DNA of 34,863 bases, from IMG/VR virus record IMGVR_UViG_3300033994_000248, positions 1 through 34,863 of that record, one strand, 5' to 3'. Made by a program: the position numbers and the translations under genes. The stretch comes from a virus. Positions 18,790 to 28,129 of the stretch are shown one piece after another (position 1 is the stretch's first letter; each line of letters opens with the position of its first letter). The notes under the pieces were generated by a model. That model was not told the origin of the DNA. It was given only the letters and a program-made list of their open reading frames with translations, and ran no database searches.

Positions 18790-19201
18790 CGCACTAATAA
18801 CCCTGCAACAAAACCCGTCTAAAGAAAACATAAATAAGCTGGTGGAATCTTTCCGCCAGCAGATTGACGAGGGCAATATGAACCCTTTATCGGTTGCAGT
18901 AAGTATGGCAGCTTTGGAAACGCTTGTGAAGGAATTACGGGCAGTTATTTCGGGCTATGTAATGGATGAGGTAGCTAAGTATCCTAAAAGCAAAGCAGAC
19001 CATTTAGGGGCATCTGTTAGCCTTGTGGATACAATCAGGCACGACTTCAGCCACATTGAGGCTTGGAGCGATTTAGAAGCGGTAATAGTTGCTGCACGGG
19101 AATCGCAGAAAAGAATAGAAGAAGAAGAAAAGAAATGGAGGCGTGGCGAATTACCAGTTAAAAGTTCATCCAGCACGTTTAAAGTCCAATTACCTAAATA
19201 A
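18779..19201 (+). CDS. Recombination-associated companion protein
   Basis: 140 residues, mostly helical, with KYPKSKADHLGASVSLVDT followed by DFSHIEAWSDLEAVIVAARE and a charged coiled-coil end (KRIEEEEKKWRRGE). I recall this arrangement in proteins encoded beside phage annealing proteins; their biochemical role is unsettled. It overlaps the previous gene by 11 bases (start within AATGGAAAATAA), suggesting coupled synthesis. No catalytic residues are evident. Confidence 0.5.
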   Translation: MENNALITLQQNPSKENINKLVESFRQQIDEGNMNPLSVAVSMAALETLVKELRAVISGYVMDEVAKYPKSKADHLGASVSLVDTIRHDFSHIEAWSDLEAVIVAARESQKRIEEEEKKWRRGELPVKSSSSTFKVQLPK

Positions 19202-19220
19202 AAAAACACAAAACAACACA

Positions 19221-19598
19221 ATGAAAAATAAAAAATTATCTAAACCTGAAGTAAAAGCTATTGCGTACATCTGCGATGTTTATCTAAAATGTATATCTAA
19301 TGAAAAATTTTCTTTGGATAAAATAGCAAGAACACACCATATAGATGCTAACTGGACTACTCAATTAAATGGCAAATATGTAAAAAGCAAAGGACATAAA
19401 TCTATGCTATGGGAATGGGTAGGGGATGCATTAACTTTTGAATTGATAGAAAAAATAATGCAGGATAAATCAGAAGCAAAGGCAGAATACATGAAAAACT
19501 ATTTTGAAAAAATTAAAGAAGTAAATAAACCCAGCGAAGTATCCGATGACGAGTTTAATATGTTTAAACAACTTGCTAAAAAACTATTCGGTATCTGA
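19221..19598 (+). CDS. Protein of unknown function
   Basis: 125 residues from the ATG at 19221, chosen because the leader AAAACACAAAACAACACA matches neighbouring genes; the open frame extends to a GTG at 19143 inside the upstream gene. Lysine-rich and helical (KNKKLSKPEVKAIAYICD, DKIARTHHIDANWTTQLNG), possibly with an HTH-like first half. No confident family. Its stop overlaps the next start (TGATG). Confidence 0.5.
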   Translation: MKNKKLSKPEVKAIAYICDVYLKCISNEKFSLDKIARTHHIDANWTTQLNGKYVKSKGHKSMLWEWVGDALTFELIEKIMQDKSEAKAEYMKNYFEKIKEVNKPSEVSDDEFNMFKQLAKKLFGI

Positions 19599-19825
19599 TG
19601 AACGCACATTTAGAAAACGCAATTTCTTACCTGCTTTATGATTTGTCGCTACCATTAGAAGAAAGACCAGCAAAGGCGGTGTTCTTTAGGACTGGGGCTG
19701 ATGTTGCTTTATTTCTTGGCATAAACGCTACCCGGCTTCCGTATATTAGGATACCCGGAAAAAAAGTAAGGGGTAAGGATGGGAAAATATATGCGGTAAG
19801 AATTGCATCTGATAAGAAAAAATAG
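19598..19825 (+). CDS. Small basic protein of unknown function
   Basis: 75 residues. The first half is helical and acidic (LLYDLSLPLEERPAK). The second contains TGADVALFLGINATRLPYIR and a basic end (KKVRGKDGKIYAVRIASDKKK), which could be a small nucleic-acid-binding unit. No family recognised. It is the last gene before the structured RNA region at 19843-19952 and overlaps the upstream gene by one base. Confidence 0.5.
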   Translation: MNAHLENAISYLLYDLSLPLEERPAKAVFFRTGADVALFLGINATRLPYIRIPGKKVRGKDGKIYAVRIASDKKK

Positions 19826-19827
19826 TT

Positions 19828-19835
19828 TATTTTTG
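19828..19835 (+). promoter_or_regulatory. Weak promoter-like -7 box upstream of the structured RNA
   Basis: TATTTTTG fits TAnnTTTG. The nearest upstream TTG-type element (ATTG, 19802-19805) is 22 bases away, slightly longer than the usual 19-21. If active, transcription would begin near 19841, just at the first hairpin. Confidence 0.3.
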
Positions 19836-19842
19836 TCCTGTA

Positions 19843-19952
19843 ATTGCTGATGCGGGTTAGCGATAATTACAAAACATTTCAAAGCCTGAAGGGGCGATAC
19901 TGTCAATGCAAGAGCGTTGAATCCCGCCAGTATCAATCCTTCAGGTTTTTTT
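19843..19952 (+). ncRNA. Structured RNA/attenuator region before the initiator gene
   Basis: Within the 131-base gap before 19957 two structures are visible. A 6-bp hairpin (19843-19848 with 19859-19864, one G-T) comes first. A long rod follows: outer stem CCTGAAGG/CCTTCAGG (19885-19892 with 19938-19945), middle stem GATACTG/CAGTATC (19896-19902 with 19928-19934) and inner stem TCAATGC/GCGTTGA (19903-19909 with 19914-19920) capped by AAGA, with a 7-base bulge. It ends in TTTTTTT, and the 5' side carries AAAG that can pair with it. It could be a small RNA with its own terminator or an attenuator for the next gene, whose ATG lies 4 bases after the T-run. Confidence 0.6.
19885..19952 (+). terminator. 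Elaborate three-stem intrinsic terminator/attenuator
   Basis: Three stacked helices of 8, 7 and 7 bp are followed by seven Ts. As it lies directly in front of the DUF4373 gene, it would stop transcripts before that gene unless overcome, making it a likely control point. Confidence 0.7.
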
Positions 19953-19956
19953 ATTT

Positions 19957-20772
19957 ATGAAAAAGGATGCTTTTTATTTTCCACACTTTTCTAACGCCAG
20001 CAAGGACAACAAAATAAGAAGGCTGGAAAAGGAATTAGGGCTTGAAGGTTATGCTATTTATTTCAAGTTGTTAGAGGTATTGCGTGAATCTACCGGGTAC
20101 AAATATCCAATGGATGACATTGATTTGTTAGCTGATGACTTTGGGACAAGCGAGCCAAAAGTAAGGGTAGTAATATGCAATTACGGCTTATTTAATGTGG
20201 ATGAGGAAAACAATTTCTTTAGCATTAAGCAGATTTATTACCTGCAACCTTACATTGAAAAGACACAAAGGGCAAGGGTTGCAGCACAAAAAAGGTGGGA
20301 CAGGGTTGAAGGTGATGCAAATGCAATGCAAATGCATAGCAAATGCAATGCTGATGCAATGCAAATAAAGGAAAGTAAAGGAAAGGAAAGTAAAGTAAAA
20401 GAAAGTAAAATAAAGGAAACAAAAGAAGAAAGTCCTTTGGTTTTTATTTCTAATGATTGGCAAGTACTTTGGGAAGGATGGGTTGAGCATAAGCGCAACC
20501 AATTTAGGGATAAGTACAAAACAAAACAATCCGAGCAGATAGCCATTAACCAGCTTGTAGAATTAGCAGGGGGCGAATTAGAAACGGCACAGGAAATTGT
20601 AAAGGCTTCAGTAAGCAACCTTTGGAAAGGATTATTCAAATTAAAAACAAATACCAATGCTACAACTAAATCAGGCAATAAGCCAAGCAATTACGACCTC
20701 TACGAACAAAGAAGACAAGAACTCCACAAATGGGCTGCAGAAATTGACAAGCAGCGAGGATTTGGACAATGA
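19957..20772 (+). CDS. DUF4373-type replication initiator-like protein
   Basis: 271 residues. Residues 1-95 match the DUF4373 (Lin1244/Lin1753-like) N-terminal domain, with MKKDAFYFPHFSNASKDNKI, LGLEGYAIYFKLLEVLRE and a winged-helix-like segment. The family occurs in phage replication modules and is thought to be a replisome organiser. A linker rich in Lys/Glu/Ser repeats (KESKGKESKVKESK, about 138-156) follows, encoded by an iteron-like DNA tract. The C-terminus is helical and basic. The gene is preceded by a terminator-like RNA structure and overlaps the next open frame by up to 116 bases. Initiator function is inferred from family and context; no ATPase motif is present. Confidence 0.65.
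   Translation: MKKDAFYFPHFSNASKDNKIRRLEKELGLEGYAIYFKLLEVLRESTGYKYPMDDIDLLADDFGTSEPKVRVVICNYGLFNVDEENNFFSIKQIYYLQPYIEKTQRARVAAQKRWDRVEGDANAMQMHSKCNADAMQIKESKGKESKVKESKIKETKEESPLVFISNDWQVLWEGWVEHKRNQFRDKYKTKQSEQIAINQLVELAGGELETAQEIVKASVSNLWKGLFKLKTNTNATTKSGNKPSNYDLYEQRRQELHKWAAEIDKQRGFGQ
20315..20432. repeat. Iteron-like repeats and purine-rich tract, candidate replication origin
   Basis: ATGCAA occurs at 20315, 20321, 20326, 20343, 20354 and 20359, with variants ATGCAT at 20332 and ATGCTG at 20348. A nearly pure A/G strand of AAAGG/AAAGT repeats follows (about 20367-20432). Short direct repeats beside a strand-asymmetric tract inside an initiator gene are the pattern of lambda-type origins. 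The tract also encodes a KESK-type linker common in this protein family, so the repeats may simply be protein-driven. Confidence 0.4.
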
Positions 20773-21436
20773 GAAGTTTCAGATAGCAAGAACATCGCTT
20801 TTATTTAGTCAGGTCAGTTTAGGCATGGCAGTTGAAATACTAATGGAAGGAATGTATAAACTTGGGCTTAAAGGCGATAAATTGCCCGGTGAAAAAGAAA
20901 TGGGTCTTCTTTACAAGTCCATAATTGAGGAATACAAAAACATAAAGATTGGTGAAGTGGCTTTAGCTTTTGATTTGGCGAGTAAAGGAAAGTTAGACAT
21001 GGATGCAGAAACCTATCAGAACTTTTCAATGCTTTACCTTCATCGTATTCTGCGAGCATTTGCCCGGTATGGGATAGTAAAGCTGAACGAGATAAAACCT
21101 GTACAAGAGCAGAAATGGAATCCTGAAGTAGTAACGGACAGGGAAAAGCTGGAAATAGCTTGGGATTGTTACAAGAAGTTCAGGAAATGGGACAGCATCG
21201 TTTTCGGGCTTGATGTCTTCAAAATCCTGCACAAAGAAGGAAAGATAATAGTAACACCAGCAGCTACGCTTCAAAAGGTTAAAAGTGCCATGAACGACCA
21301 AATGATTACAGGTAGCAGCAGGAGGAAGGCTGAAATTGCCAGCCTGCTTAATGATGATGATTACATGGAAAACCAATGTAAGCGCATGGCGGTTGCAGAT
21401 TATTTTATTACTTTTTTAAAAAAATCTCAAAAATAA
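20657..21436 (+). CDS. Probable replication protein (helicase-loader-like partner)
   Basis: Up to 259 residues. The start is uncertain: ATG at 20657 overlaps the initiator by 116 bases, while in-frame TTG codons (for example 20762) would give a shorter protein with little overlap. The segment EYKNIKIGEVALAFDLASKG, LDMDAETYQNFSMLYLHRIL is familiar from proteins that follow DUF4373 genes in Bacteroidota phages. The C-terminus is charged and helical. No Walker motif is visible, so it is not an AAA+ loader; a DnaT/DnaD-like accessory role is possible. It is the last gene before the promoter at 21437. Confidence 0.5.
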   Translation: MLQLNQAISQAITTSTNKEDKNSTNGLQKLTSSEDLDNEKFQIARTSLLFSQVSLGMAVEILMEGMYKLGLKGDKLPGEKEMGLLYKSIIEEYKNIKIGEVALAFDLASKGKLDMDAETYQNFSMLYLHRILRAFARYGIVKLNEIKPVQEQKWNPEVVTDREKLEIAWDCYKKFRKWDSIVFGLDVFKILHKEGKIIVTPAATLQKVKSAMNDQMITGSSRRKAEIASLLNDDDYMENQCKRMAVADYFITFLKKSQK

Positions 21437-21988: not shown

Positions 21989-22204
21989 ATGAGCGCACAA
22001 GAAAAAGCAGAGCAGATTTATTCCTATATGAATTTTAATTTTGTCGCAGCAGAATCGGCTATCTGCCTGCTTCATCAGGAATCAGAATACAAAATCTTTT
22101 GGGAACAAGTTTGGGAGGCATTGCTTGATACACATGGGGAAAGGTGGCAGCAGATAGAGTTTGAACATCAAAGGGAAGATTACATTAAAGCCTGTCAACT
22201 ATGA
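21989..22204 (+). CDS. Small protein of unknown function
   Basis: 71 residues, acidic, helical, with several Trp and Gln (FWEQVWEALLDTHGERWQQIE). The leader CTAAACACA lies directly before ATG. The stop overlaps the zinc-ribbon gene start by 4 bases (ATGA). No family recognised. Confidence 0.45.
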   Translation: MSAQEKAEQIYSYMNFNFVAAESAICLLHQESEYKIFWEQVWEALLDTHGERWQQIEFEHQREDYIKACQL

Positions 22205-22677
22205 AAACCTGCAAAACCTGTAAGCAACAGAAAGAATTAACCGAGTACAATAAAAACCAGCTGCAAAAAGACGGGCATGATTACATTTGCAAAGATTGCA
22301 GAAACGAGAAAAAAAGAAGTTACAACTTAGTAGGTGGTAAAAAGGTATGTAGTAAATGCCGGAAGACTAAAGAACTAACCGAATACTGCAAAAAAGCATA
22401 TAGCAAAACTGGATACAATAGCCAATGTAAAGAATGCGCTAAATTATATCAGAAATCCAAACGTCCTGAAAAGCCTGTGGTAATACACCCTGAAGGAGAA
22501 AAAGAATGCACGGGCTGTAAGAAGTCTTTACCTTACCCGGCTTTTAATCGCAATAAAGCCAGCAAAGATATGTATATGAGCAAATGTAAAAAATGTGAAA
22601 GCGACATGGCAAAGGCGAGGAAAGCAAAAGAAGATATCAATTACGCAGAGTTTTATTACCCTGTTGCACTTGATTAG
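22201..22677 (+). CDS. Triple zinc-ribbon protein
   Basis: 158 residues built almost wholly from three tandem units, each with CxxC, about 23-25 residues and a second CxxC: CKTC/CKDC, CSKC/CKEC and CTGC/CKKC. The first two share KELTEY after the first pair. Each unit can bind one zinc ion, and the surface is very basic, so nucleic-acid binding is likely. Similar ribbons occur alone in phage endonuclease VII-like and transcription-related proteins, but the catalytic residues of those enzymes are not seen. It could be a transcription factor for middle or late genes. Two palindromes follow its stop codon. Confidence 0.6.
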   Translation: MKTCKTCKQQKELTEYNKNQLQKDGHDYICKDCRNEKKRSYNLVGGKKVCSKCRKTKELTEYCKKAYSKTGYNSQCKECAKLYQKSKRPEKPVVIHPEGEKECTGCKKSLPYPAFNRNKASKDMYMSKCKKCESDMAKARKAKEDINYAEFYYPVALD

Positions 22678-26808: not shown

Positions 26809-27003
26809 ATGCCAGTAGTTAAATGTAGCAACGGAAAATGGAGAATAGGTAACGGCTTATGCGTTTACGATACCAAAGAAAAAGCGACAGAAGTTTGGCA
26901 AGCTATATTAGCAACGGGTAAATACAAAACAGATGAACACACAGAAAGTAAAAATCAGCGAGGTAAAAGCGAATCCGAACAACCCAAGACTGATAAAAGA
27001 TGA
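26809..27003 (+). CDS. Small protein with MPVVKCSNGKWRIG motif
   Basis: 64 residues. MPVVKCSNGKWRIGNGLCVY and the following helix (EKATEVWQAIL) match a short domain I recall as a stand-alone protein or as a fused module in phage packaging and protease genes; its role is unknown. The last 24 or so residues are charged and disordered and overlap the next gene by 71 bases in another frame. Starts 3 bases after the glycosyltransferase stop. Confidence 0.5.
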   Translation: MPVVKCSNGKWRIGNGLCVYDTKEKATEVWQAILATGKYKTDEHTESKNQRGKSESEQPKTDKR

Positions 27004-28129
27004 CAAGTTTAAAAAGCTGGTAAAGTCCATTCAGGAGTTTCCGGAGATGTTAAGCCTTCGCCCAATAGTAGTCAATGCGGATATGGTAGTCTTGGGTGGT
27101 AACATGAGGCTGAAGGCTTGTAAAGAAGCAGGACTGAAAGAGGTGGATATAATCAAAGCCGATGACCTAACCGAAGAACAACAGAAGCAGTTTATCATAA
27201 AGGATAACGTCGGCTTTGGTGAATGGGATTGGGAAGACCTTGCAAATAATTGGGATGCAGAACAGCTAACTGATTGGGGGTTGGATATACCCGACTTTAA
27301 AACAGAAGTGCTTGAAGCAGAGGAAGATGACTACGAAATACCTGAAGAACTAAAAACGGATATTGTACTTGGTGATTTATTTGAGATAGGTGAGCATCGT
27401 TTGCTTTGTGGGGATTCAACAGATAGCGACCAAGTTGCAAAGCTAATGAACGGACAGAAGGCAGATATGGTGTTTACTGACCCCCCTTATGGAGTAAGTT
27501 ATGAAGGGGGACACAATAAAAAGAAAAGAAAAGGTATTGAAAATGATACTCTTGAAGGGCAAGATTTAACAGACTTGTTTTATGAATCCTTAATGAATGC
27601 AGATTTGTTTTCACACGAACATTCAGCATTTTATATTTGGTATAGCACAAATAAATCTGTTGAAACATTTAATTCATTTGCCAATTTGAATCTGCAAGTA
27701 AGGGCAGTCTTATGCTGGTATAAGGTGAAAAGTGGGTTAGGTGCATTTATGGCACAATACATACCAAACTTTGAACCTTTTATTTATGCATTTAAGAAAG
27801 GCAAAAGTCCGCAATGGTTTGGGGCAAGTGATGAGAAAAGTGTATGGGAACTGAAAAAGGATAGCAATAATGACTACCACCCAACACAAAAACCAGTTGA
27901 ACTACCTGAAAGAGCGATGAAGAATAGTAGCAAAGTAAATGATATTATTCTTGATGTATTCGGTGGAAGCGGTAGCACAATGGTTGCAGCGGAGCAACTG
28001 AAAAGGAAAGCAAGACTTATGGAACTTGACCCAAAATATTGTCAGGTAATAGTTGACAGGATGATGAAACTTGACCCGAGTTTGGAGGTCAAAAGGAACG
28101 GGGTAAAATATATCAAAACATCGGAATAA
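26933..28129 (+). CDS. ParB-like domain fused to a beta-class DNA methyltransferase
   Basis: 398 residues. The N-terminal ParB/Srx-like nuclease-fold domain (about 1-120) includes NPNNPRLIKDDKFKKLVKSI and VLGGNMRLKACKEAGL. The C-terminal half is an N6-adenine/N4-cytosine methyltransferase with motif IV DPPYG (183-187) before motif I LDVFGGSGST (340-349), the beta-class order. This fusion is widespread in phages and probably methylates phage DNA against host restriction. It lies just upstream of terminase, so modified DNA would be packaged next. No matching restriction enzyme is nearby. Confidence 0.8.
   Translation: MNTQKVKISEVKANPNNPRLIKDDKFKKLVKSIQEFPEMLSLRPIVVNADMVVLGGNMRLKACKEAGLKEVDIIKADDLTEEQQKQFIIKDNVGFGEWDWEDLANNWDAEQLTDWGLDIPDFKTEVLEAEEDDYEIPEELKTDIVLGDLFEIGEHRLLCGDSTDSDQVAKLMNGQKADMVFTDPPYGVSYEGGHNKKKRKGIENDTLEGQDLTDLFYESLMNADLFSHEHSAFYIWYSTNKSVETFNSFANLNLQVRAVLCWYKVKSGLGAFMAQYIPNFEPFIYAFKKGKSPQWFGASDEKSVWELKKDSNNDYHPTQKPVELPERAMKNSSKVNDIILDVFGGSGSTMVAAEQLKRKARLMELDPKYCQVIVDRMMKLDPSLEVKRNGVKYIKTSE

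Follow-up and report, generated by a model that had tools for sequence, protein, structure and literature searches.

A covarying kissing helix in a leader RNA that precedes replication genes in Bacteroidota phages

The element upstream of the replication initiator gene

In the window, by which we mean the whole stretch of 34,863 nucleotides analysed here, the replication initiator gene is preceded by a two-hairpin RNA element. Structure and covariation together show that the loop of its 5' hairpin (H1) and a bulge in the rod that follows (H2) form a predicted kissing helix within one transcript. Placed before initiator genes, the element points to an undescribed RNA switch that would time the start of viral DNA replication. 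The window is a tailed-phage record with matches to portal, terminase, tape measure and endolysin in profile annotation. The features of the element and of the gene downstream are listed below, where A3 denotes an alignment of the window's subfamily (8 sequences) and A2 an alignment of another subfamily, sub-B (36 sequences).

19828..19835, + strand: predicted promoter -7 box TATTTTTG, of the TAnnTTTG type; such a box occurs in 38 of 38 sub-B elements
about 19840..19870, + strand: H1, the 5' hairpin, which presents loop K1 and starts at the predicted +1; from folding, with compensatory changes in the stem in sub-B
19852..19856, + strand: K1, the H1 loop GCGGG and first half of the kissing helix; complementary to K2, with covariation of the corresponding columns in A3
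19871..19880, + strand: A/U-rich linker AAAACATTTC between H1 and H2, from the sequence
19881..19949, + strand: H2, the rod or terminator hairpin, consisting of lower stem, upper stem and P3; from folding and A3 covariation
19885-19892 with 19938-19945, + strand: H2 lower stem of 8 bp, CCTGAAGG with CCTTCAGG; weak pairs could extend it
19896-19902 with 19928-19934, + strand: H2 upper stem of 7 bp, GATACTG with CAGTATC; one compensated pair in A3
19903..19920, + strand: P3, an inserted hairpin of 7 bp, TCAATGC (19903-19909) with GCGTTGA (19914-19920); covaries in the window's subfamily
19910-19913, + strand: P3 cap AAGA, from the sequence
19921..19927, + strand: K2, the 7-nt bulge ATCCCGC, of which CCCGC (19923-19927) pairs with K1
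19946..19952, + strand: U-tract of seven Ts, predicted 3' end of a short RNA, from the sequence
19957..20772, + strand: replication initiator gene, with a Lin1244/Lin1753-like N-terminus (Pfam PF14297, E 1.5e-15; phrog_2562, replication initiation protein, E 9e-22)

The positions given in the preliminary description for the rod, its AAGA cap, the 7-nt bulge, the seven Ts and the ATG were confirmed from the sequence, and the hairpin that it placed further upstream is real. Four bases separate the end of the U-tract from the initiator ATG at 19957. The fold of 19828-19957 has a predicted energy of -46.7 kcal/mol, compared with -26.5 ± 3.4 for 200 dinucleotide shuffles, none of which is as low (z -5.9). 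The rod is absent from the list produced by a simple terminator scan because this allows neither bulges nor loops over 8 nt. The linker measures 10-16 nt in the window, depending on the start chosen for H2, and mostly 14-17 nt in relatives.

The H1 loop GCGGG is the exact complement of CCCGC in the rod bulge. This complementarity is the key feature of the element and was missed in the first reading, in which the bulge was suggested to pair with another RNA; the bulge does have a partner, but this is the H1 loop of the same transcript. A match of 5 bp would by itself be weak evidence, and it is the relatives that decide.

What had been described as a promoter-like box can be named more precisely as a Bacteroidota -7 box, and hence a predicted promoter. 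In Flavobacterium the TAnnTTTG box spans -12 to -5 (PMC9723704), which would place the +1 at about G19840, where pairing in H1 begins. The spacing between box and H1 in the relatives is 3-9 nt, commonly 4-5. A search for this promoter type on the opposite strand of the window element and of 29 representatives found no box, and antisense copy control in the plasmid sense, one of the roles proposed earlier, is therefore unsupported. In Flavobacterium phages the interval from H2 to the gene showed no promoter box, and a terminator-like hairpin lies upstream of the element's promoter.

Several other features of the window were observed. Inside the initiator gene (20315-20419) the 11-nt sequence ATGCAAATGCA is directly repeated four to five times, ahead of purine-rich AAAGGAAAGT repeats. 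These are a candidate phage origin, by analogy with the lambda origin and its iterons in gene O. Purine repeats resembling those of the window are also found in some relatives. Different parts of a single 398-aa protein (26933-28129) match ParB-like families and DNA methyltransferase families, and a small protein (22201-22677) has up to three stretches matching endonuclease VII or Lar-like zinc-finger families.

Relatives and subfamilies

Relatives were gathered in IMG/VR by searching with the initiator protein and with the scaffold pattern. A recurring layout was observed upstream of their initiators, consisting of the box, H1, linker, H2, T-tract and ATG, and their H1 loop is complementary to the H2 loop or bulge although the loop sequences vary. 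A descriptor search recovered approximately two dozen distinct elements that combine this layout with complementary loops. With sub-B elements set aside, a stricter scan of 1.15 Mb of further contigs, which demanded the promoter box and the ATG, returned only three elements, all belonging to the window's subfamily. The reversed-sequence control of an earlier, looser descriptor, which had neither the box nor the ATG filter, gave 30 matches, all with words of 6-7 nt.

The subfamilies differ in the location of K2, which is either the terminal loop of H2, in which case P3 is absent, or a bulge next to that inserted hairpin. Four additional elements (L029, L025, L078 and L160; E 1e-12 to 0.02) are recovered with a covariance model of sub-B. 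Since this model does not reach the window element, the common descent of all subfamilies, which we infer, is based on layout. All 20 carrier records tested with the sub-B model contain the element. It is single-copy in 19 of them, and the remaining record has two matches, one at each end. The same model, run with stricter filters, gave no match in 395 sampled Bacteroidota genomes. Two elements, L003 (~4317) and L029 (~2187), have the same H2 scaffold with the kissing words swapped (ATGCGAC/GTCGCAT and GTCGCAT/ATGCGAC respectively).

Neither the window nor 17 relative loci match an Rfam 15 family at the gathering score, and relaxed thresholds gave nothing relevant. A blastn search of window positions 19000-21000 against cultured phages returned no matches, and no convincing element was found in the cultured Bacteroidota phages phi46:1, P12024L, lotta8-1, phi12:1 and FPSV-S1; one match in FPSV-S1 has no promoter box. 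We encountered no description of the element in the literature searched, which largely excluded subscription journals.

Covariation and geometry of the kissing helix

Six of the eight columns of the kissing helix in A3 show compensatory changes on both sides among the 8 sequences, a result equalled in none of 500 shuffles and by no slid register. As regards the other helices of A3, four of five pairs are compensated in P3 and one of six in the upper stem, and the lower stem is invariant. Overall, 95.8% of cells are paired, compared with 33-41% for slid registers and 87.4 ± 1.1% for shuffles. The window forms five of the A3 kissing pairs, the outer pairs of other members being missing, and the helix extends to as many as 10 bp in L221 and L229. 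The sub-B alignment A2 has 863 of 864 cells paired; all 7 kissing pairs are kept in 36 of 36 sequences, with two compensated columns, and further compensated columns are located in H1 (two) and in the apical stem (four).

Cultured Flavobacterium phages also carry the element. Their kissing words are GTGGAAC/GTTCCAC in snusmum and mumin, GTGAGAC/GTCTCAC in hattifnatt, lillamy and filifjonk, and GTGAGAA/TTCTCAC in morran; matched double changes separate near-identical phages of this group. Across 27 elements the mean loop pairing energy is -12.3 kcal/mol for cognate and -3.8 kcal/mol for non-cognate combinations, and in 23 of them no other combination surpasses the cognate pair. Compensatory change among relatives, chosen beforehand as the test of the preliminary description, thus proves to be abundant (A3, A2 and the cultured phages), and the conserved structure bears out its view that this is more than a plain terminator.

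Elements with a longer H1 tend to have a shorter H2 (rho -0.53, p 0.004), and the two lengths add up to a near-constant 24.2 ± 3.4 (SD 2.2 without three outliers; permutation p 0.0025). For these statistics the H1 lengths were measured manually on the folds and some H2 ends were placed manually; the elements are not fully independent. Linker length does not track stem length (rho -0.31, p 0.11). The length compensation fits a closed intramolecular fold of fixed overall length.

K words are wholly different between elements of near-identical scaffold. In the window's subfamily and the Flavobacterium phages this is suggestive of faster diversification of the K words than of the scaffold, in a comparison where 16 of the 36 scaffold bases had been fixed by the subfamily search itself. 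As a general claim it was dropped because sub-B conserves K.

Genomic context

The start codon is usually located 5-17 nt after H2. Adjacency of the two is not obligatory, since the ATG of the hattifnatt-type Flavobacterium phages stands about 50 nt past H2. The genes that follow the element are mostly replication genes, of unrelated kinds; among them are helicases, Lin1244 initiators, DUF1376-like and other initiators with C-terminal stretches in common, an HNH endonuclease and unknowns. T6+ tracts just before an ATG occur in only 10 of 506 ORFs of these phages, the window's initiator included, and the U-tract is therefore not a general translation signal. The sub-B initiators L234-L336 have unrelated N-terminal domains, together with common C-terminal stretches and the same leader RNA. 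Because the upstream ORF in sub-B mostly ends at the promoter box, ending upstream transcription may be part of the role of H2 in this subfamily.

In the Flavobacterium phages, where blast matches of the element are 86.6-98.5% identical, it is retained while the replication module that follows is exchanged, as if the element marked a module border in these cultured phages. Exchange for an unrelated module directly past the element was observed in L214 (14560-15062), NC_048832, NC_048836, NC_048831 and MN812212. A tyrosine integrase was found in none of 36 carrier records, several of which are fragments, and a prophage immunity RNA was set aside as a candidate on this ground.

Possible function of the element

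Of an attenuator, antisense copy control and a small RNA, the three roles raised in the preliminary description, the attenuator is best supported. We put at about even the chances that the element is a conditional terminator (attenuator) of the replication genes, with the kissing helix setting read-through. A leader RNA of ~113 nt (about 19840-19952) would start at its own promoter and fold H1 first and then H2, with the intramolecular K1:K2 helix locking both. H2 and the U-tract would constitute an intrinsic terminator, passed before the initiator ATG. K1:K2 would form once K2 has been transcribed, at a point when the 3' arm of H2 has yet to be made, and would set how often the terminator closes. 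Terminated transcripts would yield a compact, stable sRNA as a by-product, and read-through would permit synthesis of the replication initiator. Three parts of this scheme are inferred: termination at H2, read-through as the limiting step, and tuning of that step by the kissing helix.

The order promoter, H1, H2, U-tract and ATG, which is that of an attenuator, is found at many loci, and because the terminator lies between promoter and start codon, every transcript that reaches the initiator has to cross H2. For transcripts ending at K2, the fold predicted contains K1:K2 in 17 of 21 representatives, so that K1:K2 can precede terminator closure, which favours a conditional terminator set by kissing. 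In the window, where the kissing helix is short, the nested fold of the K2-truncated transcript does not contain K1:K2. No classical antiterminator helix that would compete with H2 was detected. Kissing is compatible with a closed terminator, which counts against the proposal, as it offers no evident route to altered termination.

The complete anatomy, with its own promoter, paired 5' end and terminator, would also suit a free-standing phage sRNA whose conserved shape targets a protein or host factor in trans, the next gene being expressed by leaky read-through. The strong conservation of scaffold bases inside subfamilies and the retention of the element where the downstream replication module is exchanged are in keeping with such an RNA. 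We nevertheless regard it as unlikely: the start codon is nearly always 5-17 nt from H2 and usually belongs to a replication gene, neither of which a trans-acting RNA needs, and the long K1/K2 words have no recurring second site in the available phage DNA. It is rather improbable that the terminated RNA senses dosage by pairing in trans, through K1/K2, with nascent leaders of the same phage, so that rising copies shut the replication genes, a scheme modelled on P4 CI RNA or plasmid antisense RNA. The location before replication genes, the completely different K words on near-identical scaffolds and the K words that do not cross-pair in three of four two-copy genomes all speak for it. However, both halves are present in one RNA and cis pairing should win, the near-constant length of H1+H2 agrees with a fold closed in cis, sub-B keeps K well conserved, and one genome holds two cross-compatible copies; the carriers, moreover, have neither a tyrosine integrase (0 of 36 records) nor an antisense promoter box.

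An improbable alternative is a put-like antiterminator, a two-hairpin RNA that would bind host RNA polymerase and cause terminators, its own included, to be ignored. A pair of hairpins immediately following a phage promoter does reproduce the layout of HK022 put (PMC9378689), and the element precedes many unrelated genes, but put itself has no U-tract terminator and touches the polymerase by defined bases, whereas the loops here vary freely, and there is no Rfam match. The predicted paired 5' end and the U-rich stretch beside the AUG might also indicate a 5' cap-like stabiliser of the mRNA or a translation leader, with the U-tract serving as a ribosome (S1) site and not as a terminator; given the rarity of T6+ before the ATG of other genes (10 of 506) and the distance of roughly 50 nt in hattifnatt-type phages, this is very improbable. 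That the element is an ordinary terminator of the upstream operon, elaborate by chance, would account for the stop codons of upstream ORFs that abut it in sub-B, but is scarcely credible, since the promoter lies before the terminator and not after it, and a plain terminator needs neither H1 nor a conserved kissing helix.

Replication timing in tailed Bacteroidota phages is little known, and we found no RNA control of replication described for them in the same, largely non-subscription, literature. Tentatively, these elements may be ring-closing kissing-loop leader RNAs of a class not described before, confined to Bacteroidota phages and acting as a common replication switch, in which exchangeable loop words on a near-constant length would give each phage a private lock; they may also read genome dosage or form oligomers. 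The element is widespread and stands before replication genes of unrelated origin. In it, interchangeable kissing pairs are naturally available on near-constant scaffolds, and its presence in cultured phages with cultured hosts makes mutate-and-compensate tests feasible.

Comparison with known systems

The loops of ColE1 RNAI and RNAII, which kiss intermolecularly, are 7 nt long and fully complementary; those of sub-B are likewise 7 nt and wholly paired, whereas kissing here is intramolecular. The repZ pseudoknot acts on translation, and an antisense RNA blocks the pseudoknot. The IncI-alpha, IncB and IncL/M rep leader pseudoknot (repZ), cited in PMC10724649, resembles the element in that both are leader RNAs before a replication initiator in which a hairpin loop pairs with a downstream segment. 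In contrast to repZ, the pairing partner here is part of a terminator hairpin with a U-tract, and the antisense RNA characteristic of an IncI-type rep leader was sought without success, no promoter box being seen on the opposite strand.

P4 CI and the prophage immunity RNAs, as well as IsrK of Gifsy-1, are likewise leaders of phage genes that end in, or control, premature termination, IsrK occurring both in a short, terminated form and as a read-through product (PMC4825925). P4 CI acts in lysogens as a processed antisense RNA, whereas the carriers here are without a tyrosine integrase and the pairing partners are contained within one short structured RNA; a separate complementary target of the P4 CI or c4 type was not apparent, the long K words having no recurring second site in available DNA. 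HK022 put, a short two-hairpin RNA adjoining a phage promoter (PMC9378689), is without the U-tract terminator that the element has at H2, and no kissing covariation is known between its loops. Attenuators based on intrinsic terminators (trp, riboswitches and pT181) have the same order of promoter, structured leader, terminator and gene. The element differs from these in that neither a leader peptide nor a classical antiterminator helix was found, and in its extra component, the kissing tertiary helix. In its working it would be most like either an attenuator or the IncI-type rep leader pseudoknot.
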